Assembly: GCA_030428385.1 (NCBI GenBank)
Contig: JAUIDY010000049.1
Location: 1-42,215, forward strand
Length of the DNA: 42,215 nt
Reading direction: 5' to 3'
Origin: Rhodothermia bacterium
GTDB lineage: Bacteria > Bacteroidota > Rhodothermia > Rhodothermales > JAAAOL01
Shown here: positions 3,225-27,544 of the stretch, piece by piece
Layout of the letters: the number at the start of each line of letters is the position of its first letter
Numbering within the stretch: position 1 is the stretch's first letter
Translations under genes and position numbers: made by a program
The notes under the pieces: generated by a model
Seen by the model: only the letters and a program-made list of their open reading frames with translations
Told to the model about the DNA's origin: nothing
The model's database searches: none

Positions 3225-3266
3225 GACAAAAGAGGGGTGCAGCCCAAATGTGCCCCGTCTTTTGTC
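3225..3266 (+). promoter_or_regulatory. Second long hairpin upstream of vgrG
   Basis: GACAAAAGAGGGGTGCA (3225-3241) pairs with TGTGCCCCGTCTTTTGTC (3249-3266), with one bulged G at 3257 and two G-T wobbles. The loop is GCCCAAA. It follows the UUCG hairpin after ten bases and ends about 105 bases before the vgrG start. No U-tract follows. The two stems make the clpV-vgrG gap highly structured in RNA. Confidence 0.72.
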
Positions 3267-3371
3267 GCAGTTGAAACTAACGGAAGGGGCAGGCCATGTG
3301 CCAAGAAACGATCATCTGCCGCATACAGAGATAGCCTGTTCGCAGCGCCTTCGAAACGAATCAAGAAACTG

Positions 3372-6071
3372 ATGATAAAGCCCGATCCATCGCTTGCCCG
3401 CTATCTCTTTGAGGCATCCAATCTGGACCCAGAAGCCTTCCATGTGGTCAACTTCAAAGGTGAAGAGGAGATTTCTCGCCTCTATTTCTTTGAAATCGAC
3501 CTGATCTCCGAAGACCCGGGGCTCGACTTTAGTTCCATCATCAACCATCCAGCCACCCTGAAGATGAATCGGGACGGGGAGTTTCTTCCCACCGGCGGGA
3601 TAATTATTGATTTTGAACAAGCCGGGCGCAACCTCGACTACGAATACACCCAGTACCGGGCCGTCCTGGCTCCACGTCTCTGGCGGCTCACCCTTAATTA
3701 CCAGAGCCGCATCTTCCAGAACAAGTCGGTCACCGATATTATCAAGGATGTGCTGGACCTGTCTGGTTTCTCAGGGTCTGACTACAAGTTCGATCTCGAA
3801 GGGACCTATGACCCCAGCGAATACATCGCCCAGTACCAGGAGACCGACTTGAACTTCATCTGCCGGTTGATGGAGCACGAAGGCATCTCGTTTTTCTTCG
3901 AACACAGCGAAACAAAAGAGACGCTGGTGATGACGGACAAACAGGATGCATTTACGCTCATGGGGGGCAAGACGGAGGTGCCGTATATGTACCGGCACCG
4001 AAAGGTGACGGGGGAAATCATCAACCAGTTGGTGTGTCGCGAAAAGCTCGTCCCCGGTACGTTTGTCCTCAATGACTACAACTACCGCACGCCCAACACC
4101 GACCTGAAGGTGGAGTCGCAGATCAACAGCGATATGCCGGGCTTCACGTACCTCTACGGCCAGCATTACAAAGACCCAGGTGCGGGGCAGCGGTTGGTGC
4201 GGGTACGGAACGAGGAAGCGGAGAGCACGCGGAAAGTGTTACACGGGGAGGGCGACTGTTCCGCGTTTCGGGCTGGTTCGCGCTTCGGGTTGGTGGAGCA
4301 TTATCGCAGCGACCTGAATGAAGAATATCTGCTCACCCGCATCGAGCACCATGGCATCCACAAACATGTCATGGATGCGGCGGGAATGAAGGAAGAGGAT
4401 GAGGACATTAAGCCGTACACCAACTCCTTCGTGTGTATTCCAGCGGGGACACGCTACCGACCTCCCCGTATCACCCCCGTTCCTAAGATCCATGGGATCA
4501 TGACAGGAACGGTGGTGGGCGACAGCGACTACGCCGCGCTGGATGAATTCGGGCGGTACCGGGCCAACATTCACTTTGACCTCGACAAAACCGGTTCGCG
4601 GCAGATTCGGACCTCCCAGCCTTATACTGGGAAGGACGATGCGGGCTTTCACCTGCCTACCCACCCCGGCACAGAGATGGTTTGGTCAGCCATAGACGGT
4701 GACCCTGACCGCCCGTTTGCCATTGCCAGTGGACCCAATCCAAACAATCCGACCACCGTTGCGGAAGAGAATAATTCCCAGCACATCTACCGCACCACCT
4801 CCAAAAACCTCTATTTCATTGAGGACCGGCAGGGGATTGAACGCATCACGTTCCACACCCCGAAACACAATTCGTTGATCTCCCTCGGGGCCAAGTTTGC
4901 CAGCAACGAAGGCATCACGGCCACGACAGAGGAAAAGGTGATTGTTCATGGCGGAAAAGGCATCGGGATGCACGCGCCTGCCGATGGATTTGTGCTCTCG
5001 GCGTGGCCGGAGTATGGCGCGGGGGGTATTGCCAAGCAACTCGCAGGCGTCATGCCCTTGTTGACCATGATTGTCAGCACGGCCACAGGAAAGTTTATTG
5101 ATGCGGCGGAGAGCCCTTTTGGGAAGATCCTTGAGTTCGTTAAGAAAGTGAACGACATCTATAGCAAGGTGGGCGTGGCGGTAAAGACAGACAAGTGGCT
5201 GCGCGAAAACCTTGCCGACAACGAAGCGGAGAAGGCGGATGCGATTACCAAGTTTTTTGATAAGCTCAGCACGCCGGGGATGTTTATCACTGCGCAGGGC
5301 GGCATCGACTTTGTGAACGTCGAGGGGTACACCATCACCACGGGCGGTGGCTACAGCCTGATGACACCGGGTGAGGTGAAAATCACCGCAGCGGACGAAA
5401 TAGGCATCTCAACGGGGGCAAACCTTTCGATGTTTGCCCGCCACGGCCATGTGCAAATGGTTTCCGACAGTAAGGACATTTTGGCGAAGGCGGTTGACGG
5501 GAACGTAGTGCATCGCGCCAAAAAAGGCATCGTGTCTTCGGCAGGTGGTCCCATTTTCCTCAAAGCAGGCGATGTCACCGACGATCTGAAACGCAAGACG
5601 TTGGGGAGTCTCGGGAAAGACATCCTTGGAAAGTTTAAAAAGAAAGACACCGACGAGGAGAAGGAATACATTCTGCCACCGACCGATCAAGATGCCCGGA
5701 TCCAGCTCAACGCCAAGGATGGGGTGTTTATCAATGGTGAACAAGGCCCGGTGATTATTCAGTCGGATGACAAAGAAGTGGCCATCGCAGGGCTTAAAAC
5801 CGCCATTGCTGGGGAGAACGGCGTCGAGATCTACGATGACAAGAAGCAGATTGAATTGAAGGTCGGGCAGGCGAGTATTTTGATGAAGAAGGACGGCACC
5901 ATTGAAATCAAAGGCACCAAAATTCTCATCGATGCAAAGATGAAGGTAGATATTAAAGGCAAGATGATTACGTCGGAAGCCGACATCAGCAATACGGTGA
6001 AAGGCGGTCTAGTCACTTTAGAAGCCAGCGGTTTGAATACCATCAAAGGGAGCCTCGTAAAAATTAACTAG
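3372..6071 (+). CDS. vgrG: VgrG/TssI spike protein with extended shaft and helical insert
   Basis: An 899-residue VgrG that trimerises as the T6SS puncturing spike. The N-terminal part (about 10-360) is the gp27-like base, with Rhs/VgrG-family features such as YQETDLNFICRLME and EHEGISFFFE. A gp5-type OB domain begins near residue 371 (GIMTGTVVG, DEFGRYRANIHFD, HPGTEMVW). The C-terminal half is a long series of short beta-repeats typical of the needle shaft. An atypical helical, partly hydrophobic stretch at about 548-636 interrupts the shaft. The frame is open further upstream, but that part crosses the intergenic hairpins and has no family similarity, so the ATG at 3372 (MIKPDPSL) was chosen. 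The PAAR gene begins 4 bases after its stop. Confidence 0.93.
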   Translation: MIKPDPSLARYLFEASNLDPEAFHVVNFKGEEEISRLYFFEIDLISEDPGLDFSSIINHPATLKMNRDGEFLPTGGIIIDFEQAGRNLDYEYTQYRAVLAPRLWRLTLNYQSRIFQNKSVTDIIKDVLDLSGFSGSDYKFDLEGTYDPSEYIAQYQETDLNFICRLMEHEGISFFFEHSETKETLVMTDKQDAFTLMGGKTEVPYMYRHRKVTGEIINQLVCREKLVPGTFVLNDYNYRTPNTDLKVESQINSDMPGFTYLYGQHYKDPGAGQRLVRVRNEEAESTRKVLHGEGDCSAFRAGSRFGLVEHYRSDLNEEYLLTRIEHHGIHKHVMDAAGMKEEDEDIKPYTNSFVCIPAGTRYRPPRITPVPKIHGIMTGTVVGDSDYAALDEFGRYRANIHFDLDKTGSRQIRTSQPYTGKDDAGFHLPTHPGTEMVWSAIDGDPDRPFAIASGPNPNNPTTVAEENNSQHIYRTTSKNLYFIEDRQGIERITFHTPKHNSLISLGAKFASNEGITATTEEKVIVHGGKGIGMHAPADGFVLSAWPEYGAGGIAKQLAGVMPLLTMIVSTATGKFIDAAESPFGKILEFVKKVNDIYSKVGVAVKTDKWLRENLADNEAEKADAITKFFDKLSTPGMFITAQGGIDFVNVEGYTITTGGGYSLMTPGEVKITAADEIGISTGANLSMFARHGHVQMVSDSKDILAKAVDGNVVHRAKKGIVSSAGGPIFLKAGDVTDDLKRKTLGSLGKDILGKFKKKDTDEEKEYILPPTDQDARIQLNAKDGVFINGEQGPVIIQSDDKEVAIAGLKTAIAGENGVEIYDDKKQIELKVGQASILMKKDGTIEIKGTKILIDAKMKVDIKGKMITSEADISNTVKGGLVTLEASGLNTIKGSLVKIN

Positions 6072-6075
6072 CGCT

Positions 6076-6405
6076 ATGCCATTTCCTTCAACGACCATCA
6101 CCTCTGCCGCCATGCACGGACCTCCCACGATGGGGGTCGGGTGCCCTACGGTCTTAATCGGCAACAAACCGGCTTGGCGTGTTACCGATACCCATACCTG
6201 TTCTATTCCAAATGCACCCCCACCAGCTGGCCCAGGAACGCCGCATGGTCCCGGCATCACGTCCCCTCCGGGATGTATCACCGTCATGGTGGGAGGTCCT
6301 CCGCTTACGAGTAATTTTGATCAGATAATGGAGCCGGGGGCCGTCGTGCCGCCATTAACGGTGGATATGATCATGATGGGATTCCCCACGGTCCTCTCCC
6401 CATAG
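6076..6405 (+). CDS. PAAR-domain spike-tip protein
   Basis: A 109-residue protein with the PAAR layout: a TMGVGCPTVLIG segment, then PAWRVTDTHTC (the PAAR-type motif, with histidine and cysteine expected to bind a metal ion), a Pro/Gly-rich middle, and a second strand set with GCITVMVGGPP. PAAR proteins cap the VgrG trimer as a sharp cone and often carry effectors. This one has no C-terminal extension, so it is a tip rather than a toxin fusion. It lies 4 bases after vgrG and 32 before the Rhs gene, which strongly suggests co-expression and joint loading. No Shine-Dalgarno is visible. Confidence 0.88.
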   Translation: MPFPSTTITSAAMHGPPTMGVGCPTVLIGNKPAWRVTDTHTCSIPNAPPPAGPGTPHGPGITSPPGCITVMVGGPPLTSNFDQIMEPGAVVPPLTVDMIMMGFPTVLSP

Positions 6406-6437: not shown

Positions 6438-9203
6438 ATGTCCCTACGCATTGATGTAGCTACTGGCGAAGCCGTCCTGCGCGAAGTAGACCTTCGGTTG
6501 CCTGGCTATATCCCGCTTGAACTGGCCCGGGTGTATCGAAGCGGTTATCCACCGGGCGGGATGTTGGGACATGGTTGGCGGTTTAACCTCGACATTGCGC
6601 TACACCTCGACAGGGAGGTCTGGAGTCTGCAGTACGGGTCAGGGAAAGTCGTACGGTTTAAGCCTGTGCAGGTGGGCGTTCAGGTTACACAAGCCGAACT
6701 GGGCATGGTGTTGCAGCATCACCCCAATGAATACGTGGTGTACGCCTCCCCGTTGGTGCAGATGGTGTTCCCCAAACGCTACGCTCAACGAGGAATCGTT
6801 CCGTTGGGACAGCTCGAAGACCTCGGGGGCAACAAGATCCAGTTTTTCTACCAGGGCAACCGCTTGATGCATCTTGTTGATACGGTAGGTCGGGAGATCA
6901 AGTTGTTATATACCGGGGCCAACATTGGTGGTATTCAGCTTCGAGGTCCAGACCGGAGCCAGCCCCCACTTACCCAGCGGGCTTTTCGGTATGATGGACG
7001 TGGGGATTTGATTGAAGTGCAGGATGCAGTCGGAAGGCGCAAGCAATACCAGTATCGCGACCATCTGTTGGTAGCGGCTGTGAACCCTATGGGGGGGACC
7101 GAGTGCGTTCAGTATGGGGAAGACAAACGTTGTCACACCCGGTGGGACACGAATGGCGGAAAGGTGCGCCAATTTGCATATGATGATGGCAGGCAGGCCG
7201 TCCATGTGATGGACTCGGAAGGTAGGCGGACGGTCTATATCTGTATGATGAATGGTCAGGTGCTTTCTCGCACCACGCCAAACGGGTTCACCCAGCATTT
7301 TTATTATAACGAGGCGCAGCAACCTCTTGGGTATACAGATTTGGTGGGCAACATCGCCATGTTCGTTCACGCAGACGAAAAAGGTAGCTTCACACGGATT
7401 CAGAGCGACACGTTTACCAAAGCCGAGCTTGATGAACGGGGGCTGGCAACCACATGGATGGATGCGCGCGGGATCGTTTATCACCTCACCTATGATGCCC
7501 AGGGACGGTTGTTCACGCAGGCTGTCACGGACGAAACCACGTGGCGCTATGAGCGGGATAGCCGAGGACGCATAACGGCACTGCATACGCCCGAAGAGCG
7601 GCGCATCCGGTTCCGCAGTGAGGAAGGGGCATTGGTGATCGAAGATGAACTGGGATTATGTTTGCGCGAGCGGTACGATCTGATGGGGCGCACGGTAGAG
7701 CGTCATGATGCCCTGGGACGCCAGCAACAATGGCAATATGACGGCGAGGGGCGATTGCTACGGTATGGTGTTGTAGGAGGCTTTCATCTAATCTGCAACT
7801 ACAACCCGGGAGGGCAGCTTACCTCCGTCCAAGATGCCGAAGGGAGAAAGGCCACGCTTCAATATGATGCCCACGGTAGGCTACAGGCATCCAAGGACGA
7901 GGAGGGGCACAGTTGGCGGTATGGGTATGATCGCGAAGGGAAGGTGACCCAGATCCAGGATCAACGGGGAGGCATGGCTTCACTCACCTACGATGCCGAA
8001 GGCCACCTGCTACACGTGGAGGGTTGGAATGGACAGGGGGCCCGATTTGCTCGTTCAGGTGAAGAAACGGTCGTCACCGTGGATGACCAGGGTTTAAAAC
8101 AGGAATGGCATTACGGAGGGTTAGGTGCGCCTCTCACGCAGCAGACTGGCGAGCAAGAAGGGCCGCACTTCATTTTTGATAACCAGGGCAGCTTGGCAGA
8201 AGCCAGTCTCCCAGGAGCAACCTGGACCTGGGCCTATGATGAGCAGGGCAACCTGGCATCCTTGCAACGAAACGATGTGATGCTGTCTTTTTCCTTCACC
8301 CGCGACGGACAGCTTGCGGCCGTAATGGATGAGGCAGGAAATGGAGTTCAACTATTATACGACCCCCGTGGAAGGGTGCAGGAAGTCCTAGAAGAAAACA
8401 ATGGCACCAGCACGGCACGCCATCGTCTTCGATACGACGAAGGAAATCGGTTGAAGGTGTTGACCCTTGACAGTTCTGCGTTTCTTACCATTCGGTATGA
8501 TATGCTGGACCGCGTGACCGAACGGAGCCTTTTTTCCCCGGAACGGACACGGCAAGATCACAAACGTGGGACGAGTCGCGAACTGGAAACCCCCTGGCGA
8601 GATCAACTGACCGTCTCAGAAGGTGAAAGTCGGCTTGTCTTGTTGCAAAATGTCTATGGGTTGGTGTTAGTAATTGAATTAGCGGGCATCCGGATCCCTG
8701 TGTGGAGTCAGTATTGGCTGCTTGCCCCACCCCCGTTGGCATGGGAACGTGAAGTTGAAATCAGTTGTCTGCGCGGAGAAGACGGATTGTTAAAATGGGG
8801 AGGACAGCCTGCCTTGTTAGAGATGCCGGCTCGGTGTCATGCGTTCGCTGGGGCAGCGTGGCCTGCTTTTGCCGGAGATCTGCCGTCCGTCGACGTATTA
8901 TCTCGCTACCTCCCCGTGCTGCCCAATCCGATGTTGTCTCGGGCCGATTATGACCCACAATTTCCCGGCCTGGTACCTGGAATTGAGGAAGGAGAACAAG
9001 TGACCCTCCCCTCCATGTCAGATGATTGCATAACGGGAACGCACGAAGCAGGTCGACCTTCCAGCGTATCGAGAAAAGGTTTTTCGGGGATCGATTGGTT
9101 ATGCCCTTCCCTTGCGGTACCGAATGAGGCGGCGCGTAATGGCTCCGGCTTACTCCGGTTGTTGAAAAATCTCAATGCGATGTCGATGAGCCATGCAGGT
9201 TGA
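6438..9203 (+). CDS. Rhs/YD-repeat protein, candidate T6SS cargo with atypical C-terminus
   Basis: A 921-residue protein. The N-terminus (SLRIDVATGEAVLREVD, LARVYRSG, LGHGWRFN) matches the opening domain of Rhs proteins. Residues about 180-700 are YD repeats of the form YDxxGRL, which build the hollow beta-cocoon that holds toxins in known T6SS Rhs effectors. The usual PxxxxDPxGL core-closing motif is not present. From about residue 702 the sequence departs from the repeat: it includes a hydrophobic stretch (about 733-768) and an unfamiliar 220-residue tail that I cannot assign to any toxin family. No signal peptide. Its stop overlaps the next gene by 11 bases, so translation is probably coupled. 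Position between PAAR and DUF2169 genes supports T6SS delivery. It could be a cargo, a carrier or a decayed effector. Confidence 0.8.
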   Translation: MSLRIDVATGEAVLREVDLRLPGYIPLELARVYRSGYPPGGMLGHGWRFNLDIALHLDREVWSLQYGSGKVVRFKPVQVGVQVTQAELGMVLQHHPNEYVVYASPLVQMVFPKRYAQRGIVPLGQLEDLGGNKIQFFYQGNRLMHLVDTVGREIKLLYTGANIGGIQLRGPDRSQPPLTQRAFRYDGRGDLIEVQDAVGRRKQYQYRDHLLVAAVNPMGGTECVQYGEDKRCHTRWDTNGGKVRQFAYDDGRQAVHVMDSEGRRTVYICMMNGQVLSRTTPNGFTQHFYYNEAQQPLGYTDLVGNIAMFVHADEKGSFTRIQSDTFTKAELDERGLATTWMDARGIVYHLTYDAQGRLFTQAVTDETTWRYERDSRGRITALHTPEERRIRFRSEEGALVIEDELGLCLRERYDLMGRTVERHDALGRQQQWQYDGEGRLLRYGVVGGFHLICNYNPGGQLTSVQDAEGRKATLQYDAHGRLQASKDEEGHSWRYGYDREGKVTQIQDQRGGMASLTYDAEGHLLHVEGWNGQGARFARSGEETVVTVDDQGLKQEWHYGGLGAPLTQQTGEQEGPHFIFDNQGSLAEASLPGATWTWAYDEQGNLASLQRNDVMLSFSFTRDGQLAAVMDEAGNGVQLLYDPRGRVQEVLEENNGTSTARHRLRYDEGNRLKVLTLDSSAFLTIRYDMLDRVTERSLFSPERTRQDHKRGTSRELETPWRDQLTVSEGESRLVLLQNVYGLVLVIELAGIRIPVWSQYWLLAPPPLAWEREVEISCLRGEDGLLKWGGQPALLEMPARCHAFAGAAWPAFAGDLPSVDVLSRYLPVLPNPMLSRADYDPQFPGLVPGIEEGEQVTLPSMSDDCITGTHEAGRPSSVSRKGFSGIDWLCPSLAVPNEAARNGSGLLRLLKNLNAMSMSHAG

Positions 9204-10269
9204 AGGCAGTCACATATCAAATCTGTGGATGCCGGGTGTACGGCTGAAAGGGAAAGACCTGCGGTTCCAAACCTACGTGGACATCGAAGGCGAACGGGCC
9301 GATCTCAGTGATGCCCAGTTGGACGAAACCATCTTTGAGGGCGCCCAGCTTTCCAACGCCATCTTCCGAGGCGCTCGGCTAAACGACGGACGTTTCAAAA
9401 CGTCCATTCTCACCGGGGCTGATTTTTCCCGGGCGCATTTACAGGGGGTTGTCTTTGAACAGTGCCTCCTGGATCAGGTGACGTTTCAGCAAGCGCAACT
9501 CCAGAATGCCCAATTAATTGAATGTGTGGTCACGAAGGCCGATTTCAGGAACAGTCAACTAGATAACATCCAGCTAAAGAAATCGCTGTTGGACGAAACC
9601 AACTTCTCAGGATGCACCCTGAAAGAGGCAGATTGCACAGAAAGTGTCTTTCAACGCGCCACACTTGTCCGCACACGCTTCGAAGGGACCAAGCTTTTGC
9701 GAGCTTCTCTGTATCAGGCACAGCTTATTGAAGCTCACTTCACCAAAAGTGTACTTTCCGGGGCAATCCTCGAAGAGGCTCTCCTTTCAGGGGCCGTATT
9801 CAATGATTCCATCTGCGTCACAACGTATGCGCGTCGCGCTGACCTTTCAAATTGTAAAATGGCGGGAGTGAAAGCGTCCGGCTCTTCCTTCGAACGCGCA
9901 ACCCTAAAAGGAGGGCGTTTTATTGATGTTGTGGCTGACTATGCTGTTTTTGAATATGCCGATCTGAGAGAGGTGCAAATTACCAGTTCAGTCTTTGACA
10001 TGGCAAATTTTGTCGGGGCCGACCTTTCAAACTCACAACTGGTTAAGAGCAGCCTTTATGGGGCCGACTTTTTCCTGTCAGAAGTGAACACGCTGCACCG
10101 GGCGGGATGTGATATGGAACATGCCCGGATGCCTCAGAAGGCCCACCCCAAATATGGTCCCAGCGTGCACCCTCCTCAGATTCAACCACAAGCGGTGTAC
10201 CGAGAAGCGCTGGAACGGACGGAGCGGCATGCCTTGATCCAGAAGGCAATAGGAGGGGAGGGGAACTAG
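9193..10269 (+). CDS. Pentapeptide-repeat protein of the T6SS cargo module
   Basis: A 358-residue protein, nearly all of it pentapeptide repeats of the A(D/N)LxX kind (ADLSDAQLDE, GADFSRAHLQG, KADFRNSQLDN, GADLSNSQLVK). These fold as a right-handed quadrilateral beta-helix. The last 60 residues leave the repeat and end in a charged helical tail (YREALERTERHALIQKA). The start ATG lies inside the end of the Rhs gene (11-base overlap, +1 frame), so coupled translation is likely. The DUF2169 gene follows after 4 bases. From general knowledge, pentapeptide repeats and DUF2169 often occur together near vgrG/PAAR genes, in one protein or adjacent ones. I infer a spike-adaptor or stabilising role. 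A DNA-mimic role, as in Qnr proteins, is less likely in this context. Confidence 0.82.
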   Translation: MQVEGSHISNLWMPGVRLKGKDLRFQTYVDIEGERADLSDAQLDETIFEGAQLSNAIFRGARLNDGRFKTSILTGADFSRAHLQGVVFEQCLLDQVTFQQAQLQNAQLIECVVTKADFRNSQLDNIQLKKSLLDETNFSGCTLKEADCTESVFQRATLVRTRFEGTKLLRASLYQAQLIEAHFTKSVLSGAILEEALLSGAVFNDSICVTTYARRADLSNCKMAGVKASGSSFERATLKGGRFIDVVADYAVFEYADLREVQITSSVFDMANFVGADLSNSQLVKSSLYGADFFLSEVNTLHRAGCDMEHARMPQKAHPKYGPSVHPPQIQPQAVYREALERTERHALIQKAIGGEGN

Positions 10270-10273
10270 GCGT

Positions 10274-11359
10274 ATGGATATTCAAAACAACACCCCCTTC
10301 GAAACAAGCCTTGCTATCGGGTTAGGTCCCAATCGCCAACCATGCGTGTCATTGGTTGTCAAGGCCACCTACACCATTCCGGCGGAGCAAGGAATGGCTC
10401 CCAAAGTCGCCGAGTCCCAGATCGAATTTTTTAAGGGCGATGAATATCACGATGGCGATGTTACGGGAAGTCTGCTTTACGAAACAGACGATATCGCCTT
10501 TAAGCCCAACGCAGATATTGTTGTTGTAGGTCACGCCAATACGCCGGGTCTTCGGCCTATGCATCAACTTGATGTGATGCTTCGTGTGGGGCGGTTGCAA
10601 AAGGTGGTTCGCGTCTTCGGGGACCGGCACTGGCTATTTCCAAGCAAAATGGTGATGGTTCCAATTATCACCGATCCAAAGCCCTTTCAAACGCTTCCCC
10701 TGCGGTATGAATATGCGTTTGGGGGGACGGACCGAAAAGCGGCCAAGTGGTTTTCAAAAAATGCCATCGGAAAAGGGTTTATTGGGAATAAAAAACCGGA
10801 ATCTGTAGACGGAAAGCCGCTTCCCAATATTGAAGATCCATATCGGCTGATTTCGTCGTGGGACGATGAACCCGATCCGGCAGGTTTTGGGTTTTACAGC
10901 CGGACCTGGCAGCCCCGAATCGGGCTTGGTGGCACTGTGCAAGGAGGGGCAGAGGCTCATCCGCTATTCGGGCTAGGTTCCGATTTCAGCGTTGCGTATT
11001 TCAATGGAGCTCCCCCCGATTTACAGGTCCCAGGTTACCTAGTCGGGAATGAAGCGGTTGAAATGATGAATTTCACGCCCGATGGACCCCGCCGTTTTCC
11101 ACTCCCTGGCGTGCGTCCGAGTTTGGTGCTCCGTACCTTGCAACATCCCGAAGATGAAGTTCCAGCCGAGATGCAGGAACCGCCACAGGCTCATCAACTG
11201 AAGCCGAACCTGGATACCCTGGTGCTTTTGCCAGACGAAGGTGTTTTTTATATGGTATGGCGAGGCATTCATCCGATAGGAGAAATCCCCGATGAAGACG
11301 CGCTAATCCATGTGTTCAAAAAAATTGTCGCAGCCGAGATATCCCTCGAAAACGTATAA
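10274..11359 (+). CDS. DUF2169 family T6SS adaptor-like protein
   Basis: A 361-residue protein matching DUF2169: an early LVVKATYTI segment, then FKGDEYHDGD, a DIVVVGHA strand, VFGDRHW, and LRYEYAFGGTD, with a late NFTPDGP motif. DUF2169 proteins are found near vgrG and PAAR genes and are thought to help load spike-associated effectors; the mechanism is not firmly established. Here it follows the pentapeptide gene by 4 bases and precedes the fused sheath gene by 17. The purine-rich GGAGGGGAGGGG before its ATG lies within the end of the pentapeptide gene and is one of the few Shine-Dalgarno-like sequences in the cluster. No signal peptide or membrane segment, so a cytoplasmic role is expected. 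Confidence 0.87.
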   Translation: MDIQNNTPFETSLAIGLGPNRQPCVSLVVKATYTIPAEQGMAPKVAESQIEFFKGDEYHDGDVTGSLLYETDDIAFKPNADIVVVGHANTPGLRPMHQLDVMLRVGRLQKVVRVFGDRHWLFPSKMVMVPIITDPKPFQTLPLRYEYAFGGTDRKAAKWFSKNAIGKGFIGNKKPESVDGKPLPNIEDPYRLISSWDDEPDPAGFGFYSRTWQPRIGLGGTVQGGAEAHPLFGLGSDFSVAYFNGAPPDLQVPGYLVGNEAVEMMNFTPDGPRRFPLPGVRPSLVLRTLQHPEDEVPAEMQEPPQAHQLKPNLDTLVLLPDEGVFYMVWRGIHPIGEIPDEDALIHVFKKIVAAEISLENV

Positions 11360-11379
11360 CGTGAGGCTTGTGCCTCATG
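11360..11379 (+). promoter_or_regulatory. Hairpin burying the first ATG of the sheath-fusion gene
   Basis: CGTGAGGC (11360-11367) pairs with GCCTCATG (11372-11379) around TTGT, with one G-T wobble. The left arm starts directly after the DUF2169 stop codon and contains the only GAGG. The right arm contains the ATG at 11377. If that ATG is used, translation should depend on opening this stem. If the ATG at 11419 is the true start, the hairpin sits in the leader. Confidence 0.65.
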
Positions 11380-13299
11380 CTCAATGTCCTTTATCACCCT
11401 GCTAAAAAATTCAAGGTCATGGAAAATAATCCCGAACGCCGGGTAGGCATGTTCGTAAGCTCCGATCCCGACGAAACCCTGATGCATACCCAGCCTGAAG
11501 GATCCACGGCACAGGAGCAGCAGGGGCAACTACCCCTTCGTTTTCTGTTTGTTGGCGACCTCGATCCGGCGGCGGCGGGTCACGAGCCTGCCACGCCCAA
11601 AGTGTGGTCGGTGGATAAAAACAGTTTTGCTGGGGTAATGGCCAATATCAACCCTCGGATAGTGCTGGACGTCCCCAATCATGTAGCGGAGTCCCCCAAG
11701 ATGCTGGAGTTGAACCTCCAGTTTGACAGCCTGCGTGATTTTGAGCCCGCTGCCGTAGCGCGACAGGTACCTGCGCTCAATCAACTAATCGAGATTCGTA
11801 CGTTGGTGAATCGGGTAAGCAAAGGCGACGTGGCTCTTGATCATTTCGAAAATGAGCTTCAAGCAATTGGGGTGGATGCGGCATGGGCTGCAGACTTAGC
11901 CAAAACCCTCAGTCGTCCATCGGCATCCACTCCGCCACCGGCTGCAGGTTCCAGTGGAAGTCCAACACTCGACCGCTTGCTTGGAATGATGGGTGAGGGG
12001 CCTGCCCCAAAGGAGAGAGCCCCAAAAGAGGAGGGCGGAGGGCTGTTAGATTCCTTGTTCGATGCGGTGGCAGGGGATACGCAGTCCGGTGCGCAGGTAG
12101 AAAAAACCGCCGCGAGCGGGCTGATGGGCAACCTGGACGGCGTCATCAGTACGCAGTTAAACGCCATCTTTTCTGCCCCTGCTTTTCAGCAATTAGAAGC
12201 GGCATGGCGCAGTGTCAAGATTCTTGTAGACCGCCTCGACTTCCGGGAAGCCATCTTGCTGGAAGTGGTCCCGGCAGGACGCCAAAACCTTGCCGAGGTC
12301 CTGTATTATCAGGTTTTGCTTCCCGAGCATAGCGAGGACAATCCCAAAATGCCACTTTCAGCCGTACTGATTGGGGAGACGTTCGGTAATACGGCCGAGG
12401 ATTTCGAACTGCTCAATGAGTTGGCGGAGACAGGAGCCAGTTTGCAGACGCCCGTTATTGCAGGGGTCAATCCTTCCTTTTTTGGATCCGCAACGGCAAA
12501 AAAATTCAGCAGGCTGCCGGTGTTGTGGCAACTGCTGGAAGGTCCGGAATACATTGAATGGCACAAGCTGCGGGATCGAGAAGAAGCCAGTTTCCTTACC
12601 CTTGCGGTTCCACCCTTTTTGTTACGTCCATCGTACGGCGAATCACATCCTGCCAAAGGCGTCGGGTTTGAAGAGGATGGACAGTCGTGGGGAAGTGGTG
12701 CCCTTGCCGTGGCAATCTTAATGGCTGATAGCTTTGTCAGCACCGGCTGGCCTACGCACCTGACGGGGGGCGGCCCTCGCACCATCACCAATCTCCCCAT
12801 CTGGAAGGCAGGGCATGGGCACACGCCCTTGACGGCATTGCTCTCCAGCGATGCGCAGCGCGATCTGTCGAAGGCTGGATTTACAGTGTTGGGTGGATCC
12901 ATGAACCGAGACACCATCCATATTGAACGGGCGCAGACCGTCCGCAAGCCGGAATCCCACGACGATTTGATGGCTGCAACCGAGGCCAAGCTGCATATCG
13001 GCTTGCCAAGTCAACTCTTTGTGGCCCGGTCGGCTCACTTCTTACTCATGCTCCAGCGGCTCATGGATCCCGTGGAGGACGTTGAATCTACGCGCCTCAC
13101 GCTGGAGGCTGTCCTTAACAAATTCATCGCCGGATCCAACCAAACGGCATCGCTTGATGCGGTATCTGTGGAGTATGTAGACGAGGCGGGATTACCCGAG
13201 CACGAATTGTTTGCTGTCCGTCTCCGTGCACCAAAGCACATCCTGAGTCGGCCAGTGAGCCTTGTTCTGGGCATCCAATTACCAAAAGCCAGCGCCTAG
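11377..13299 (+). CDS. TssB-TssC-like fused T6SS sheath protein
   Basis: A 640-residue protein combining two sheath families. Residues about 50-150 resemble TssB/VipA (LRFLFVGDL, VDKNSFAGVMANINPRI, VARQVPALNQLIEIR). Residues about 253-640 resemble TssC/VipB (ISTQLNAIF, FQQLEAAWRSVKILVD, a WGSGALAVAILMADSF segment, then the FVARSAHFLL region). The linker between them is Pro/Ala/Gly-rich and holds two short amphipathic helices: LDRLLGMM (198-205) and LLDSLFDAV (223-231). The second resembles the N-terminal TssC helix that ClpV recognises in other systems. Length is close to TssB plus TssC. The ATG at 11419 (MENNPERR) is a serious alternative start; a TTG at 11368 is less likely. Ordinary tssB/tssC genes, if present, lie outside the window. 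Confidence 0.75.
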   Translation: MLNVLYHPAKKFKVMENNPERRVGMFVSSDPDETLMHTQPEGSTAQEQQGQLPLRFLFVGDLDPAAAGHEPATPKVWSVDKNSFAGVMANINPRIVLDVPNHVAESPKMLELNLQFDSLRDFEPAAVARQVPALNQLIEIRTLVNRVSKGDVALDHFENELQAIGVDAAWAADLAKTLSRPSASTPPPAAGSSGSPTLDRLLGMMGEGPAPKERAPKEEGGGLLDSLFDAVAGDTQSGAQVEKTAASGLMGNLDGVISTQLNAIFSAPAFQQLEAAWRSVKILVDRLDFREAILLEVVPAGRQNLAEVLYYQVLLPEHSEDNPKMPLSAVLIGETFGNTAEDFELLNELAETGASLQTPVIAGVNPSFFGSATAKKFSRLPVLWQLLEGPEYIEWHKLRDREEASFLTLAVPPFLLRPSYGESHPAKGVGFEEDGQSWGSGALAVAILMADSFVSTGWPTHLTGGGPRTITNLPIWKAGHGHTPLTALLSSDAQRDLSKAGFTVLGGSMNRDTIHIERAQTVRKPESHDDLMAATEAKLHIGLPSQLFVARSAHFLLMLQRLMDPVEDVESTRLTLEAVLNKFIAGSNQTASLDAVSVEYVDEAGLPEHELFAVRLRAPKHILSRPVSLVLGIQLPKASA

Positions 13300-13393: not shown

Positions 13394-15199
13394 ATGCAAC
13401 CAACCACCATCCGCGTCCGTGTCGAGATCCCAGATGGTCCGACGATTGAACGCTCCTTTAATACTTCGTTCACGCTGGGGCGTGTGCCTGAATGTGATGT
13501 TCAGGTGCAATCGGGGCTGGTGAGTCGTGTCCATGCCGAGGTGGTCTATGAACAGGGACAATGGTGGTTACACGACCGGAATAGCACAAACGGGGTTTTT
13601 CAGGAAGGGGTGCGCATCAGCCAGGCCGCCGTGGGAGAACGTGCCCTCTTTCAACTAGGCAACAACGGCCCCCTGGTACATCTTCAAGCCGAGCGTACCA
13701 CGGCCCCTCCCGTGACCAGGGTGGATCCGGTTCCTGAGCCGCTGGCCGACCCTATGCAAGACCTGAGCCTGCCCCCTTTGCAAGATCTAAGTTTGCCCCC
13801 GCTCCAAGATCTGAGCCTGCCGCCGGAGGATACACCACTTGCGGCACAAGAATCTGATGGGCCGAAGCTTTCCCCTAAAGAGGCTTTTGAAGCGCGTAGA
13901 CGGCAAGAGTCGTTTCACAGGCAAGGGCCGCTGCCTGAAGCAGGGTCCTTTGTTAACGCGGTAAATGCGCCCACTTCGGTTGAGTCTGATCCTACATCTT
14001 CTCCTCCTCAAAAGGATGAACGGGAGATGTCGGATGTGATCGCACATTATTTTGACCCCGAAGACGACACCCCGGCAGGAGAGCGGACGATGATGATCCG
14101 CCATGCCTACAAAACCGTTAAGAAGAAAGAGAAACGGAAATACACGGGAATTATCATCGCAGTTGGGGTTTTGTTTGTGCTTGCGGCGGCATTTGCCATC
14201 TTCAAACAGGTGCAGAGCAGCAGGCAGCAGCAATTAGCTGAAGAGATTTTTACCCAGATGAAACAACAAGACCTTCGCACTGCGCAGGTGCTGCAGGTCA
14301 TCTTGGGTCGTGAGGATGCAGGCGACGCAGAACTGCAGGCCCTGGTGGAAGGGGTGCGCGAGGACAGACAGCGGCTGGCGTCTCAGTACAACGGATATGT
14401 AAAAGAACTAGGGCTCTACCGGAGACTGAGCGAAGAAGAGGAACTGATCTATCGGGTGGCGCGCATCTTTAACGAGAGTGAATTTGGGATGCCCGCTGGT
14501 TTTATCCGAGAAGTACGTCGCACCATTCGGGAGCATTGGCAGGGACCGGGTCGCGGAACGTTTATCACCGCTGTGGAACGGGCAAACGAAAATGGGTATA
14601 CCCCCGTAATCGTGAAGACGATGCAAGACTATGGCTTGCCCCCCGAGTTCTTTTACCTTTCGATGCAGGAAAGTGTCTTCAACGTAGAGGCAGTAGGTCC
14701 GGCCACGCGATGGGGGATTGCAAAAGGGATGTGGCAGTTTATCCCCTCAACGGCCCAGCGATATGGTCTCCGCACCGGCCCGCGCGACAACTTGCGGGTG
14801 GTGGACGACCAGGACGACCGCCACGATTTCCGGAAAGCAACCGACGCAGCAGCACGTTATCTTCTTGATATCTACAGCACCCCGGCCCAGGCCTCAGGGC
14901 TGCTGGTGATTGCTTCCTACAACTGGGGTGAGCATCGGGTGGTGAACAAGCTGGAACGGCTGCCCGGTCCACAAACCATTCCAGAAGAAGCATTTGAAGG
15001 CATCCCCTTGGATCCCTCAGAACGAACTTACTGGCGCTTCCTAACGGAATACAGCGATCGTATGCCAGAAGAAACCAAGGACTATGTACTGAAGATTTTT
15101 GCGGCTGCTGTTATCGGGCAGAACCCTCGGTTGTTCGGCTTTGATTTTGATAATCCTTTACAACCCTATATGGAAATTCCCAGCGATTTAGTAGAATAG
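13394..15199 (+). CDS. FHA domain - transmembrane - lytic transglycosylase fusion
   Basis: A 601-residue protein in three parts. Residues 1-100 are a forkhead-associated domain with the phosphothreonine-reading set G29-R30, S44-R45-x-H47 and N66-G67. A linker carries three 8-residue repeats (122-145). A single membrane helix lies at about 252-271, preceded by KKKEKRK, which predicts FHA inside and the C-terminus in the periplasm. The C-terminal domain is SLT/MltD-like: PPEFFYLSMQES with E426 as probable catalytic acid, then GMWQFIPSTAQRYGL and IASYNWGE. Lytic transglycosylases cut peptidoglycan, and some T6SSs need one to cross the wall. The PP2C and kinase genes follow directly, so FHA likely reads their phosphorylation. 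In Pseudomonas the reader (Fha1) is separate, so this fusion is notable. Confidence 0.88.
   Translation: MQPTTIRVRVEIPDGPTIERSFNTSFTLGRVPECDVQVQSGLVSRVHAEVVYEQGQWWLHDRNSTNGVFQEGVRISQAAVGERALFQLGNNGPLVHLQAERTTAPPVTRVDPVPEPLADPMQDLSLPPLQDLSLPPLQDLSLPPEDTPLAAQESDGPKLSPKEAFEARRRQESFHRQGPLPEAGSFVNAVNAPTSVESDPTSSPPQKDEREMSDVIAHYFDPEDDTPAGERTMMIRHAYKTVKKKEKRKYTGIIIAVGVLFVLAAAFAIFKQVQSSRQQQLAEEIFTQMKQQDLRTAQVLQVILGREDAGDAELQALVEGVREDRQRLASQYNGYVKELGLYRRLSEEEELIYRVARIFNESEFGMPAGFIREVRRTIREHWQGPGRGTFITAVERANENGYTPVIVKTMQDYGLPPEFFYLSMQESVFNVEAVGPATRWGIAKGMWQFIPSTAQRYGLRTGPRDNLRVVDDQDDRHDFRKATDAAARYLLDIYSTPAQASGLLVIASYNWGEHRVVNKLERLPGPQTIPEEAFEGIPLDPSERTYWRFLTEYSDRMPEETKDYVLKIFAAAVIGQNPRLFGFDFDNPLQPYMEIPSDLVE
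13757..13828 (+). repeat. Three tandem 24-bp repeats (QDLSLPPL) in the FHA-transglycosylase linker
   Basis: Codons 122-145 encode QDLSLPPL, QDLSLPPL and QDLSLPPE. The DNA copies differ mainly at third positions, so the peptide repeat looks conserved rather than a fresh slippage product. It lies between the FHA domain and the membrane helix, on the predicted cytoplasmic side. Confidence 0.9.
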
Positions 15200-15229: not shown

Positions 15230-15988
15230 ATGCTCTGGAAAACAAAAAGAAAGCGTGCCCTCCGTGTTGGTGTCGTGTCGGATGTGGGTCAGGTACGCTC
15301 CGAAAACCAAGATTCATGGGGGATTTATCCCGAGTCGCGCAATGGCGAAGAAGTGCCGAATGAGCAACTTTTCCTCGTCGCGGATGGAATGGGTGGCCAT
15401 GAACATGGTCAGGAAGCCAGCCGCATGGCAGCCCGGTTCATCAGCGAATATTACTTTGCCCATGCAAACTGGGAGATTGTAGATCGACTCGATCATGCCT
15501 TTCAGGTTGCCAACAAACGCATCTGGGCACGCTCCAACGAGGGCGAAGAAAAGATGGGCACGACCTGTACGGCGCTGGCTCTTTTGGGCCGAGAATTTTA
15601 CCTCGCTCATGTTGGTGATAGCCGGTGTTATCGTATCAACGAAGAGGGTATTGAGCAGGTGACGACAGATCACACCCTGGTGGAAGAGATGCGCCGAGAG
15701 GGCGTCTTAACCGAGGAAGAAGCCCTTCACCATCCCAGGCGGCACGCCCTTATGCGCGCTCTTGGAATCCGCGAGGAAACCGACATTGATATTCTTGGGC
15801 CTTTCCCCGTAAAAATGGGTGACCGCTATCTGCTCTGTTCGGATGGGCTCGCACCGGTTCAAAATGACGAACTGCATCGCCTGGTGATGGCAACCAATGT
15901 CCCGCAAGAAGCATGTGAGACGTTGGTTGCGTTGGCAAATGAGCGAGGTGGCCCCGACAACGTCACTGTCCTGGTGGTATCGTTTTGA
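15230..15988 (+). CDS. PP2C-family Ser/Thr phosphatase (PppA-like)
   Basis: A 252-residue stand-alone PPM/PP2C phosphatase. Metal-binding residues are all present: R23-SENQ-D28, D52-GMGG, D205-G206 and GGP-D243-N244. The HVGDSR motif is at 127-132 and GTT precedes it. The domain fills the protein; there is no signal peptide or membrane helix, so it is cytoplasmic. In Pseudomonas-type T6SS, PppA removes phosphate from Fha1 and opposes the kinase PpkA. Here the same pair lies in order after the FHA fusion, so a matching role is inferred. The intergenic gap from the FHA gene is 30 bases. Confidence 0.92.
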   Translation: MLWKTKRKRALRVGVVSDVGQVRSENQDSWGIYPESRNGEEVPNEQLFLVADGMGGHEHGQEASRMAARFISEYYFAHANWEIVDRLDHAFQVANKRIWARSNEGEEKMGTTCTALALLGREFYLAHVGDSRCYRINEEGIEQVTTDHTLVEEMRREGVLTEEEALHHPRRHALMRALGIREETDIDILGPFPVKMGDRYLLCSDGLAPVQNDELHRLVMATNVPQEACETLVALANERGGPDNVTVLVVSF

Positions 15989-16085: not shown

Positions 16086-18020
16086 ATGATTGGTCAGGTT
16101 CTAGATGGGTATAAAATCGTAGACATCCTGGGCCGAGGAGGCATGGGCATTGTCTACAAGGCCGAAGATCAGGAACTGCGTCGCCACGTGGCACTCAAGA
16201 TGATCGATCCGGCACTGGCCAAGGATGATACCTTTGTGCTACGCTTCCGACGAGAGGCACAGGCCTTGGCCCGGATCGACAGCCGCCACATCGTGGGCGT
16301 CCACGCCTTGCGTCGCACAGAGCAAGGGCTCTTTATCGTAATGGAATACGTGGATGGGGGAACGGTCGGCGATTTGATCAAGGAAGACCCGCTTTCGATG
16401 GATTCGGCCATCCCCATCATCGACCAGATGTTGCTGGCATTTGAGGCTGCGCATAGCGTTGGGATTGTTCACCGGGATATCAAGCCGGGCAATGTCATGC
16501 TAACCAGCAGCGGCACCGTGAAAGTAACCGACTTTGGACTGGCGAAGCGGTATCGCGAAGGGGAAGTCACCCAGGCTACGGTGACGCAGGGCATTGCTGG
16601 TACCTTGTATTACATGTCTCCAGAGCAGGTGCAGGGAAGCAAAGATCTTGATCATCGGAGTGACATCTTTTCGATTGGGGTAACCCTGTACCGCATGCTG
16701 GCTGGTCGGTTGCCCATCGAAAAAGGCAGTGGCGAATTCTCGGTCATGCGGGACATCGTAGAAACGGAGTGGCCGCCCCCGTCTACCTATAATCCCCGGC
16801 TTTCAAAGGCCGTTGATGCGTTTGTGATGCGCGCGTTGGTGAAAGACCCGGAGGGACGGTACCAGAGCGCCCGGGAGATGCGGGAGGCCTTAAAGCAAAT
16901 ACAATCAGGTGGCGAAGTGCCACACTGGGACGCCAAGTCTGATGATGACCATCCAACACCGCGTCCCAAATGGTTAGTAGCAACCCTTAGCCTGGTCGGT
17001 ATTGCTCTGATCGCTACCGCGGTCGCATTGTTTGTTATCCGGGACGGAGGCGGGACGAACGGTGGAACGGACATAATAGAAACCACAGGCACCATCCGGT
17101 TAGCTGATCTGCCAGCGGACGCCGTGGTGCTTATCAACGGGCAAGCCATGCAACCGGGTGAGGCGTGGGAGACAGAGGCGGGGCCGGCCACCGTTTTGGT
17201 AGAAAAAGAAGGCTTTTTGCCCTGGACGCAGCGCGTCCAAGTGGAAGCCGGGGAAACCATTTCCTTCCTTGTAAGCCTTGAGCCCGTTGCCCAACAACTT
17301 CCCGATGATCCTGACGAAAATCCCATCGAAACCGTTACGACCACCAATCCCACACCTACCACTGGAACAATTCGCTTGCAAGGGGTGCCTGCCGGTGCCA
17401 ATGTCCGCATTAATGATCAACCGGTGAATGCCGGTGCAGACATCACATGGCGAACCGGCGGTGCCACCGTAGTCGTAGAACTGGCAGGTTTTGAGCGATG
17501 GAGCCAGACCATCCAGGTTCCAGGGGGGCAACTGTACCCACTTCAAGTGAACCTGATACCCGAAGAAACAGAAAACGTCGAAGCACAAACGGTGGCTGTT
17601 ACGCTCTCCCCGACATCGGGTGGCAGTGCAGTGATTGCTGGGGGTACCCCGGTTCGTAGCCGCTCGACCGTGCAGGTACCGCCGGGTCGGCATCAGGTGA
17701 CGTTTCGTGATCCAACGTATGGCGAATGGACCACATCTGTGGATGTAAGCAGTGCACGCACCCTGACGGCCTATTTTGAGCGAGAAGTGCAGGTTGGGCT
17801 GGACTCGCCCGATGGTGGCTCCATGTTCGCGGCCTTGTGGATTGATGGGGAAAGTGCCGGGACGGCACCCGCAGTTCTTACCCTAGGGCGCGGCATCCAT
17901 ACAATCAATATCACCAAGGCGGATTACGAAGTGTTGGACCCTCAGCAACAGATCCAGATTGATCCGTCGCTCCAAAAACCGGAGCCCTTGCGTGTTGTGT
18001 TCCGAATGCAGCGCCAGTAA
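16086..18020 (+). CDS. Transmembrane Ser/Thr protein kinase with PEGA-like repeats (PpkA-like)
   Basis: A 644-residue protein. The N-terminal kinase domain (about 9-275) has the glycine loop G16-RGGMG, K38 for ATP binding, HRDIKPGN with catalytic D131, DFG at 149-151, and SPE in place of the usual APE. A single membrane helix lies at about 297-317. The outside part holds at least two PEGA-like repeats (TGTIRLADLPADAVVLING, then TGTIRLQGVPAGANVRIN), followed by two more divergent copies. It fits the PpkA position in the threonine-phosphorylation pathway, but PpkA of Pseudomonas has a different periplasmic sensor. PEGA repeats are often found on envelope proteins; envelope sensing is inferred. 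Targets are probably the neighbouring FHA protein or T6SS parts. Confidence 0.92.
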   Translation: MIGQVLDGYKIVDILGRGGMGIVYKAEDQELRRHVALKMIDPALAKDDTFVLRFRREAQALARIDSRHIVGVHALRRTEQGLFIVMEYVDGGTVGDLIKEDPLSMDSAIPIIDQMLLAFEAAHSVGIVHRDIKPGNVMLTSSGTVKVTDFGLAKRYREGEVTQATVTQGIAGTLYYMSPEQVQGSKDLDHRSDIFSIGVTLYRMLAGRLPIEKGSGEFSVMRDIVETEWPPPSTYNPRLSKAVDAFVMRALVKDPEGRYQSAREMREALKQIQSGGEVPHWDAKSDDDHPTPRPKWLVATLSLVGIALIATAVALFVIRDGGGTNGGTDIIETTGTIRLADLPADAVVLINGQAMQPGEAWETEAGPATVLVEKEGFLPWTQRVQVEAGETISFLVSLEPVAQQLPDDPDENPIETVTTTNPTPTTGTIRLQGVPAGANVRINDQPVNAGADITWRTGGATVVVELAGFERWSQTIQVPGGQLYPLQVNLIPEETENVEAQTVAVTLSPTSGGSAVIAGGTPVRSRSTVQVPPGRHQVTFRDPTYGEWTTSVDVSSARTLTAYFEREVQVGLDSPDGGSMFAALWIDGESAGTAPAVLTLGRGIHTINITKADYEVLDPQQQIQIDPSLQKPEPLRVVFRMQRQ

Positions 18021-18041
18021 CGCATTACTCAGTAGTGAAGC

Positions 18042-18112
18042 GCGTTGGAACGATTCTCGCTCTTTGCTGCTTGTACGAATTCACCTCCACCAACGCCAGA
18101 GGGCTACCTCTG
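18042..18112 (+). promoter_or_regulatory. Two abutting stems upstream of the first CsgG-like gene
   Basis: GCGTTGG (18042-18048) pairs with CCAACGC (18090-18096), 41-base loop. Directly after it CAGAGG (18097-18102) pairs with CCTCTG (18107-18112) around GCTA. The second hairpin ends 8 bases before the ATG at 18121 and so may occlude ribosome entry. The layout, long-loop stem then short hairpin with no spacer, matches the element before the kinase gene although the sequences differ. Confidence 0.65.
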
Positions 18113-18120
18113 CTAGGACG

Positions 18121-19149
18121 ATGAAAATAAACGCTGGTACCCGCCACCTGACCCTCACCCTTTCGCTGGTGTTTTGCCTCGTTTGGAATGCCGCTGCCCA
18201 GGATGCCCGTTTTCAGCAAGGGCAACAAGCCTATAGCAGCGCGGACTTCGAAGGAGCCATTCAGCATTTTATCGCTGTTTCTGCCGATACGTCTGCGCCG
18301 CTCGAATTACGCGAGGAGGCGCTTAAATATCTCGGACGTGTCTACATTGCAAAAAACGCCCTTGAAGAAGCGCGCAACGTCGTGACACAACTCCTCGATC
18401 TGGAGCCGCCCCTCGTAGAACTTGACCCTGAAGTGGAGCCGCCGCCACTCATGAAGATCTACTACGAGGTCCGCAAGGAGTATGAAGGAAACTACAACGT
18501 GCAGCAAGCCGACCCGGGTATCCAGACGCTTGCTGTGATGGACTTCACGAACAACTCCATTGACGATCATGAGCGGTTCGACCCAATGCGTCAAGGCTTT
18601 GCCTCGATGATGATCAATACCCTGGGTGGAGCAACCGACCTGAAAGTGGTAGAGCGCGAACGTTTGCAGTGGTTGCTAGGTGAACTTGATTTGCAGCGCA
18701 GCGACTATGTAGATCAGGCATCTGCTGTGAGGGCCGGTAATCTTCTGGGGGCCCATGTTGTGCTCTTTGGGGCCTATACCGTTCATCGGAAACAGATCCA
18801 ACTAAGTGCCCGGCTGGTGAAAGTAGAAACAGGGGAAATCCTGTTGGCTGAGCAGGTGCTGGGAGACCGGGATGATTTCTTCGAACATGTAGAAAAGCTA
18901 AGCCTCGAGGTGGCCCGTTCCATCAACAGTTCGTTAGAAGAGACAACCGTGGGCGCACGTACCGAGACCCGTTCCCTAGACGCACAAATCTCTTACTCGG
19001 AAGGGCTGGGTGAACTCGATAAAGGAAACTATCACGCGGCCTACGAGAAATTCCAGGAAGCGTTGGATTATGATCCAAATTTCGAACGGGCTCGAACAAA
19101 AGCTGACAGCCTCCAGCCAATGCTTGCGCAAGCAGTTATCGATGGCTGA
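18121..19149 (+). CDS. Periplasmic TPR + CsgG/FlgO-like protein
   Basis: A 342-residue exported protein. A signal peptide (LTLTLSLVFCLVW, cut after NAAA) is followed by TPR-like helices with GQQAYSSADFEGAIQHF and EALKYLGRVYI. The middle is a CsgG/FlgO-like domain: TLAVMDFTNN, FASMMINTLGG, VVERERLQWLLGELDL, YVDQASAVRAGNLLGA, VLFGAYTV. A last TPR unit follows (GNYHAAYEKFQEALDYDP). The cysteine in the signal is not a lipobox, so it is probably soluble in the periplasm. The frame is open upstream to 17959, but that part overlaps the kinase gene; the ATG at 18121 starts the signal peptide. It is a clear paralogue of the lipoprotein at 23309, with the large ASH-repeat gene between them. Confidence 0.82.
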   Translation: MKINAGTRHLTLTLSLVFCLVWNAAAQDARFQQGQQAYSSADFEGAIQHFIAVSADTSAPLELREEALKYLGRVYIAKNALEEARNVVTQLLDLEPPLVELDPEVEPPPLMKIYYEVRKEYEGNYNVQQADPGIQTLAVMDFTNNSIDDHERFDPMRQGFASMMINTLGGATDLKVVERERLQWLLGELDLQRSDYVDQASAVRAGNLLGAHVVLFGAYTVHRKQIQLSARLVKVETGEILLAEQVLGDRDDFFEHVEKLSLEVARSINSSLEETTVGARTETRSLDAQISYSEGLGELDKGNYHAAYEKFQEALDYDPNFERARTKADSLQPMLAQAVIDG

Positions 19150-19168
19150 TTGACACATCAATTCCTTG

Positions 19169-19202
19169 GGGGCGCACCACATCATTGCTTTTGGTGCGCC
19201 CC
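19169..19202 (+). terminator. Probable terminator after the first CsgG-like gene
   Basis: GGGGCGCACCA (19169-19179) and TGGTGCGCCCC (19192-19202) form a perfect 11-bp GC-rich stem with a 12-base loop, 20 bases after the stop codon. Only a short TTT follows, so termination may be partial. It may separate the T6SS/kinase transcript from the ASH-protein gene. Confidence 0.6.
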
Positions 19203-19297
19203 TTTGCGAAGTAGCATCTCCCTCTAAAAAGACGTACCATACACAAGGTGTGTGGGCGTGTAGCAAACGGGTCCTTCTTCATCTCACCTCGCCGATC

Positions 19298-25851: not shown

Positions 25852-25875
25852 GCTACTCATTATCGAACGAGTAGC
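25852..25875. terminator. Hairpin between convergent genes
   Basis: GCTACTC (25852-25858) and GAGTAGC (25869-25875) form a 7-bp stem with a 10-base loop between the barrel gene (+) and the DUF1501 gene (-). The right arm lies in the last codons of the DUF1501 gene. No clear T-run on either side, so any terminator function is weak. Confidence 0.4.
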
Positions 25876-27485: not shown

Positions 27486-27544
27486 GGCGGTGTGTGAGAA
27501 ATGGACAAAAAAGAACGCTGGTTTCAGGAGGCCCTCCGACAGCC

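Follow-up and report, generated by a model that had tools for sequence, protein, structure and literature searches.

A TssB-TssC fusion of the Rhodothermales, encoded alongside a separate TssB/TssC pair, as a candidate auxiliary protomer of the T6SS sheath

T6SS sheaths are regarded as polymers of one repeating TssB/TssC unit, in which the N-domain of ClpV binds the N-terminal helix of TssC, and in sheaths the gp25-like hub joins rings and tube. TssB (VipA) and TssC (VipB) are two chains, while the sheaths of phages, R-pyocin and eCIS (Pvc, Afp, Alg2) have a single chain per protomer. According to excerpts of PMC8894135, PVC and AFP use multiple sheath proteins, and the end layers of AlgoCIS differ in shape. 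An extra TssC-type protein within one T6SS is described in the excerpted account of Agrobacterium (PMC3702570), where TssC40 (Atu4340, ImpD) is required for Hcp secretion and is not redundant with TssC41. We also observed in Rhizobium anhuiense (L089:10441-11829) a second tssC directly after tssC, with the gp25-like domain intact, i.e., one T6SS with two TssC-type proteins. Finally, the excerpted Vibrio cholerae work (PMC5797969) reports that at least two extra residues in the VipA linker stop contraction but not assembly, that elongated-linker VipA co-assembles with the wild type and blocks firing dominantly, and that VipB K223A impairs assembly and D333A contraction.

Here we describe a single-chain TssB-TssC protein encoded in a 42,215-nt stretch of DNA from a Rhodothermia bacterium (hereafter the window; all coordinates are positions in it, on the forward strand). 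This protein resembles TssB/TssC in carrying both Pfam profiles in order, in having TssC chains as its top structural matches and in keeping a ClpV-helix-like motif, but it differs in being one chain instead of two, in a longer N-terminal linker, in a hub that Pfam does not recognise and in coexisting with a separate pair. Its parts are T6SS sheath parts. No published natural TssB-TssC fusion was found in the one open-access library searched, where one of two incidental phrase matches was, as far as the excerpt goes, to a GFP-tagged TssB.

The gene occupies one uninterrupted frame at 11377-13299, which opens at a TTG at 11368. An earlier note on this DNA had started it at the ATG at 11377 (640 aa); this is probably 14 codons too early, and the likely start is M15 (11419-13299, 626 aa), because M15 is invariant in a six-row alignment—whose five relatives, as cut by the analyst, begin at M15—and AAGG lies just upstream of 11419. 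In the numbering of the 640-aa reading, the TssB-like (VipA) half spans residues 46-177 (11512-11907), with a match to Pfam T6SS_VipA (PF05591, E 4.2e-23, 82.3 bits against a gathering score of 24), and the TssC-like (VipB) domain spans residues 252-522 (12130-12942; PF05943, E 4.5e-42, 144.6 bits against 27), so that the reading of two halves in one chain holds, both families and not just one being matched above their gathering scores. Solved PDB chains of TssB and TssC likewise match their respective halves by sequence. Equivalog models score the fusion under their cut-offs, with 77 bits for TIGR03358 (TssB, cut-off 97.25) and 168.7 bits for TIGR03355 (TssC, cut-off 271.5), compared with 160.6 and 642.9 bits for the genome's own TssB and TssC. 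An annotation or assembly artefact can be rejected, 16 complete one-chain genes being present in other genomes, and the gene is confirmed as encoding a natural TssB-TssC fusion.

Structure prediction indicates that one chain holds a complete contractile-sheath protomer fold, TssB part included. An AF2 model from 53 alignment rows reached a pLDDT of 87.8 and a pTM of 0.85, with residues 1-26 and about 200-221 uncertain, as compared with a poor earlier model from six fusion rows alone (pLDDT 57.8); the 53 rows included canonical TssB/TssC rows, so that likeness to TssC is partly built in. With this qualification, TssC chains are the top structural matches of the model in VIA-align (Z 31-35), and single-chain sheaths of phages, pyocin, PVC, AFP and Streptomyces CIS match with Z of about 17-25, mostly over model residues ~51-625. 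Since the phage and eCIS sheaths align across both halves, the TssB half of the model completes the protomer just as, in a phage sheath, the N-terminal portion of the chain does. Identity of these sheath chains to the fusion is about 6-15%, and the fusion sequence is of the T6SS TssB/TssC type. The sheath fold anticipated in the earlier note is therefore present in the full-chain model. In this monomer model the C-terminal strands are formed, and no strand is formed at the N-terminal VGMFVSS-type motif (11443-11463), a strand-like segment putatively equivalent to the TssB handshake strand.

The two halves are joined by a linker (residues 181-242; 11917-12102) of low pLDDT between two confident domains. 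It had been proposed to carry internal ClpV-type helices, and of the two motifs named one is conserved and the other is not. LDRLLGMM (residues 198-205; 11968-11991) aligns with the N-terminal TssC helix in a MAFFT alignment, and the pattern [LVI][DGE]x[LIV][LMF]xx[VM] occurs in the linkers of all 17 complete fusions against a shuffle expectation of 0.03 of 17, although these rows are related and do not count as 17 independent events; a shortened copy in genome G328 has VDRLMRMT at this motif. LLDSLFDAV (residues 223-231; 12043-12069), by contrast, occurs as such only in the window protein among the 17 and aligns with a different TssC helix, and it is rejected as a second ClpV helix. On this alignment, the fusion keeps one internal ClpV-helix-like motif.

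The genome to which the window belongs has exactly two TssC and two TssB matches, corresponding to the fusion and to a separate pair on contig C170. This tssB/tssC pair is accompanied by one gene each for TssK, Hcp and TssF, which makes the fusion an extra subunit: it can be rejected as the organism's sole sheath, and the earlier suggestion of a fused chain that forms the sheath and fixes a 1:1 stoichiometry is not supported. Among the 114 genomes of the order searched, 24 have any match and 20 have the fusion, which is complete in 17, cut by a contig end in G327, split over two contig ends in G306 and shortened in G328. A separate TssC is present in 18 of these 20 genomes, the two without it being incomplete (G327, 81%; G366, 74%), while TssC is found without a fusion in four of the 24 (G329, G332, G340 and G348); the G332 contig stops 0.4 kb short of the expected place of the fusion, and in G329 other genes fill that site and no fusion is found there. 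The shortened G328 homologue (L106:12969-14375) is a strongly diverged protein of 468 aa encoded directly before the FHA-SLT gene described below; it was missed by the genome-wide search, came to light solely through this position and is recognised by hhalign (probability 98.9), its VipA half not being seen by Pfam.

The remaining components point to a single apparatus. TssK is present once in 18 of the 20 fusion genomes (G351 has two contig-edge pieces and G366 lacks it), Hcp once in 17 (G310 has a tandem pair, and both G327 and G366 lack it) and TssF once in all six tested. Because of the single TssK and Hcp, this looks like one T6SS machine that uses two types of sheath subunit. The same counts bear on the idea that the fusion forms the sheath of another T6SS, distinct from the first, within one cell. 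Such a system would account for a TssC-like half lying apart from the canonical TssC clade (100/100), and the two contig-end TssK pieces of G351 have overlapping profile ranges, making a second copy possible in that genome; but with single TssK and Hcp genes in most carriers, and the fusion located within the T6SS locus itself in 13 genomes, we disfavour this explanation as barely plausible.

Of 296 genomes drawn from the phylum, six have the fusion, all of this order, and among 244 genomes of the class the sole match beyond the order, in G396, is to a separate pair. A pattern-based scan of genome contigs, in which other phyla are poorly covered, returned only two relatives, both again of this order. 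Named carriers are Roseithermus sacchariphilus and MAG UBA2364. Apparent fusions in G396, G267 and Gemmatirosa were rejected as adjacent separate genes. The plasmid-record matches listed (annotated rows and Gemmatirosa) include no single gene covering both halves and correspond to separate tssB/tssC genes or other products, the phage collection holds four records with T6SS-like matches, each spanning less than 80% of the query, and the viral contigs gave no matches. Phage_sheath_1 has no match in the window's genome; 4 of 22 genomes have one, at other sites.

In a phylogeny with long branches, whose midpoint root serves for drawing only, the 17 fusions form one clade (100/100), and their TssC-like half is distinct from the canonical TssC clade. 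The tree test does not reject (p-AU 0.17) a grouping of the fusion with TssC of this order, or with it a recent duplication of the order's tssBC. Orthology with ImpD/TssC40, i.e., a clade with the rhizobial second TssC, is rejected (p-AU 0.00035), in a comparison with one rhizobial row and long branches. TssC40/ImpD nevertheless offers, on the excerpts of PMC3702570, the nearest functional precedent, being like the fusion an extra TssC-type protein in one T6SS; unlike the fusion, the rhizobial second TssC is not joined to TssB and has an intact gp25-like domain. Across 13 genomes, fusion distances correlate with those of the separate TssC (Spearman 0.52, 14 of 9999 permutations) and of TssB (0.51, 32 of 9999), as expected for a long-standing member of the same system that was inherited with TssB/TssC. 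Mean pairwise identity is 0.40 for the fusion vs 0.71 for TssC, indicating that the fusion evolves faster. This fast evolution, the shortened version in G328 and the lack of a fusion at the expected place in G329 would suit a diverging or decaying tssBC duplicate with no present role. We consider such a fate very improbable, since 17 frames from several families of the order are complete, a neighbouring gene and the N-terminal motif are conserved, and the linker motif is invariant.

The fusion gene lies within or beside a full T6SS locus, as seen in G030, where a single contig carries on one strand TagH-TssJ-TssK-TssL-TssM-TagF-TssA-TssB-TssC-Hcp-TssE-TssF-TssG-ClpV-VgrG-...-DUF2169-fusion-FHA-SLT. 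In the window's genome (G000), contigs C202 (TagH-TssM), C170 (TssM-TssF) and C5, which is the window and picks up at ClpV, match the G030 order and are presumably neighbours. The window itself begins with a ClpV-type AAA+ ATPase (TssH, 370-3120, 78-79% identical to ClpV of the G030 T6SS locus), followed by VgrG (3237-6071, profile match), a PAAR-like protein (6076-6405, a weak match under the cut-off), an RHS-repeat protein (6438-9203) that is part of a VgrG-PAAR-DUF2169 module and whose C-terminal end is assigned no Pfam domain, a pentapeptide-repeat protein (9193-10269, profile match) and a T6SS-associated DUF2169 protein (10274-11359, profile match). Directly downstream of the fusion lies a gene (13394-15199) for a protein that combines an FHA domain with a single predicted membrane segment and an SLT transglycosylase domain (FHA-SLT), and then, by profile match, a PP2C-type Ser/Thr phosphatase (15230-15988) and a Ser/Thr protein kinase with PEGA domains (16086-18020). 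Further along, two CsgG-domain/TPR proteins (17959-19149 and 23309-24688) travel with the T6SS regulators in most relatives. T9SS-type C-terminal sorting domains also occur next to the T6SS locus in two proteins (19166-23305 and 25860-27632; choice-of-anchor D repeats, DUF1501), and a DUF1800 protein lies at 27545-29230.

FHA-SLT is a conserved neighbour. Of 19 genomes with a visible flank (G327 left out), 17 have its gene immediately after the fusion; the gene is cut by a contig end in G310 and G352, and it was not found in G342 or G346, where the fusion lies, respectively, far from the T6SS core locus (contig C4) and on another contig (C185). It is present in 19 of the 24 T6SS genomes examined, including three without a full-length fusion (G328, G329 and G332), and has one hydrophobic segment in all four cases examined. 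FHA is a phosphothreonine-binding domain and SLT a lytic transglycosylase, and because these are joined with a hydrophobic segment in one protein, FHA-SLT suggests a partner in the membrane complex.

Relative to TssB/TssC, the fusion has changed mainly where rings, tube and baseplate would be contacted. The stretch separating the N-terminal strand-like motif from the next strand's LP is 23-31 residues in 17/17 fusions (15 by pattern and two by eye; G327, G306 and G328 left out), vs 18-19 residues in 34/34 TssB (31 at 19, three at 18); this reading depends on motif anchors, the MAFFT alignment not having paired the fusion motif with the TssB strand. Taken so, the fusion resembles the engineered V. 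cholerae VipA-N2 to N7, which have a longer strand-to-LPL link (excerpts of PMC5797969), although those carry one engineered change in a two-chain sheath, whereas the fusion is natural and has many other changes. The likeness raises the possibility of a brake, in which contraction-incompetent fusion molecules scattered through the sheath would hold it extended until removed or phosphorylated. The dominant block by co-assembled long-linker VipA in V. cholerae, a fusion linker exceeding 19 residues by 4-12 in every complete copy and the adjoining regulator genes speak for it; the anchor-dependence of the linker reading and a D333 equivalent that is still acidic in 9/17 fusions (vs 18/20 TssC) speak against it, and we judge it distinctly unlikely. 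The K223 equivalent is K in 1/17 fusions vs 16/20 TssC; both positions were mapped through 3j9g, assuming that its chain begins at residue 61, which the structural-match range supports. With D333 acidic in about half of the fusions, contraction determinants are not uniformly lost.

The C-terminal gpW/gp25-like hub (residues 530-640; 12964-13296) is the most changed part. PF18945 gave no match in any of the 10 fusions searched with it (E limit 0.01, 0.1 or 1 depending on the scan), while it is clear in 2/2 TssC controls and in the rhizobial second TssC; the region is unrecognised by sequence, yet its predicted fold is sheath-like. Identity of the fusion to TssC falls from 0.293 in the VipB part to 0.194 in the hub, as against 0.423 and 0.405 for the order's TssC compared with other TssC, and a W that is conserved in the hub helix of TssC (LNRWL in the separate TssC of this genome) is retained by 0/17 fusions. 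More generally, of 71 columns conserved in at least 19/20 TssC, 14 are kept in at least 15/17 fusions and 28 in three or fewer. These changes weigh on the notion of an alternative full sheath, according to which the fusion would polymerise alone on the same baseplate and Hcp tube and conditionally replace TssB/TssC. The predicted complete protomer would permit this, the single TssK and Hcp could be shared and the neighbouring kinase, phosphatase and FHA genes could switch the fusion on; but a rewritten ring-and-tube hub without its W, and a homologue reduced to 468 aa in G328, are hard to square with a bulk polymer, and we think such a sheath unlikely.

Beyond the computed fold and the computed co-occurrence with a normal sheath, we infer, at a little short of an even chance, that the fusion is an auxiliary single-chain protomer of the cell's only T6SS, present in the TssBC sheath as a specialised minor ring. 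This ring would most likely sit at the baseplate end: a complete protomer changed mainly at ring, baseplate and tube contacts, with a long tether and an FHA-SLT neighbour, fits a baseplate-end adaptor better than bulk sheath. The extended N-terminal linker and the rewritten gp25-like hub would couple ordinary sheath rings to a different neighbour, either the baseplate or, via the FHA-transglycosylase partner, the membrane complex; the fusion ring would contract poorly or not at all, and ClpV would pull the fusion out after firing. A function as cap or brake is also possible. Several observations go against a ring, namely the acidic D333 equivalent in 9/17, an N-terminal strand left unaligned by MAFFT and absent from the monomer model, and the fusions of G342 and G346, which stand apart from the T6SS locus and without FHA-SLT. 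A fuller picture, possible but rather doubtful, is a sheath of two protomer kinds, with TssB/TssC forming the contractile body and the single chain a dedicated ring that resists contraction, as base adaptor, cap or brake. In such a sheath the long linker would act like the engineered VipA extensions, and ClpV and the phosphorylation genes would regulate release.

If the ring reading is true, a conserved extra protomer in a one-T6SS cell would mean a sheath with specialised rings, as in PVC and AFP, and would provide a natural handle on sheath start, stop, loaded state and recycling. The single-chain protomer also bears on the interconversion of two-chain T6SS sheaths and one-chain phage sheaths, and it is a ready one-gene reagent for structural work.
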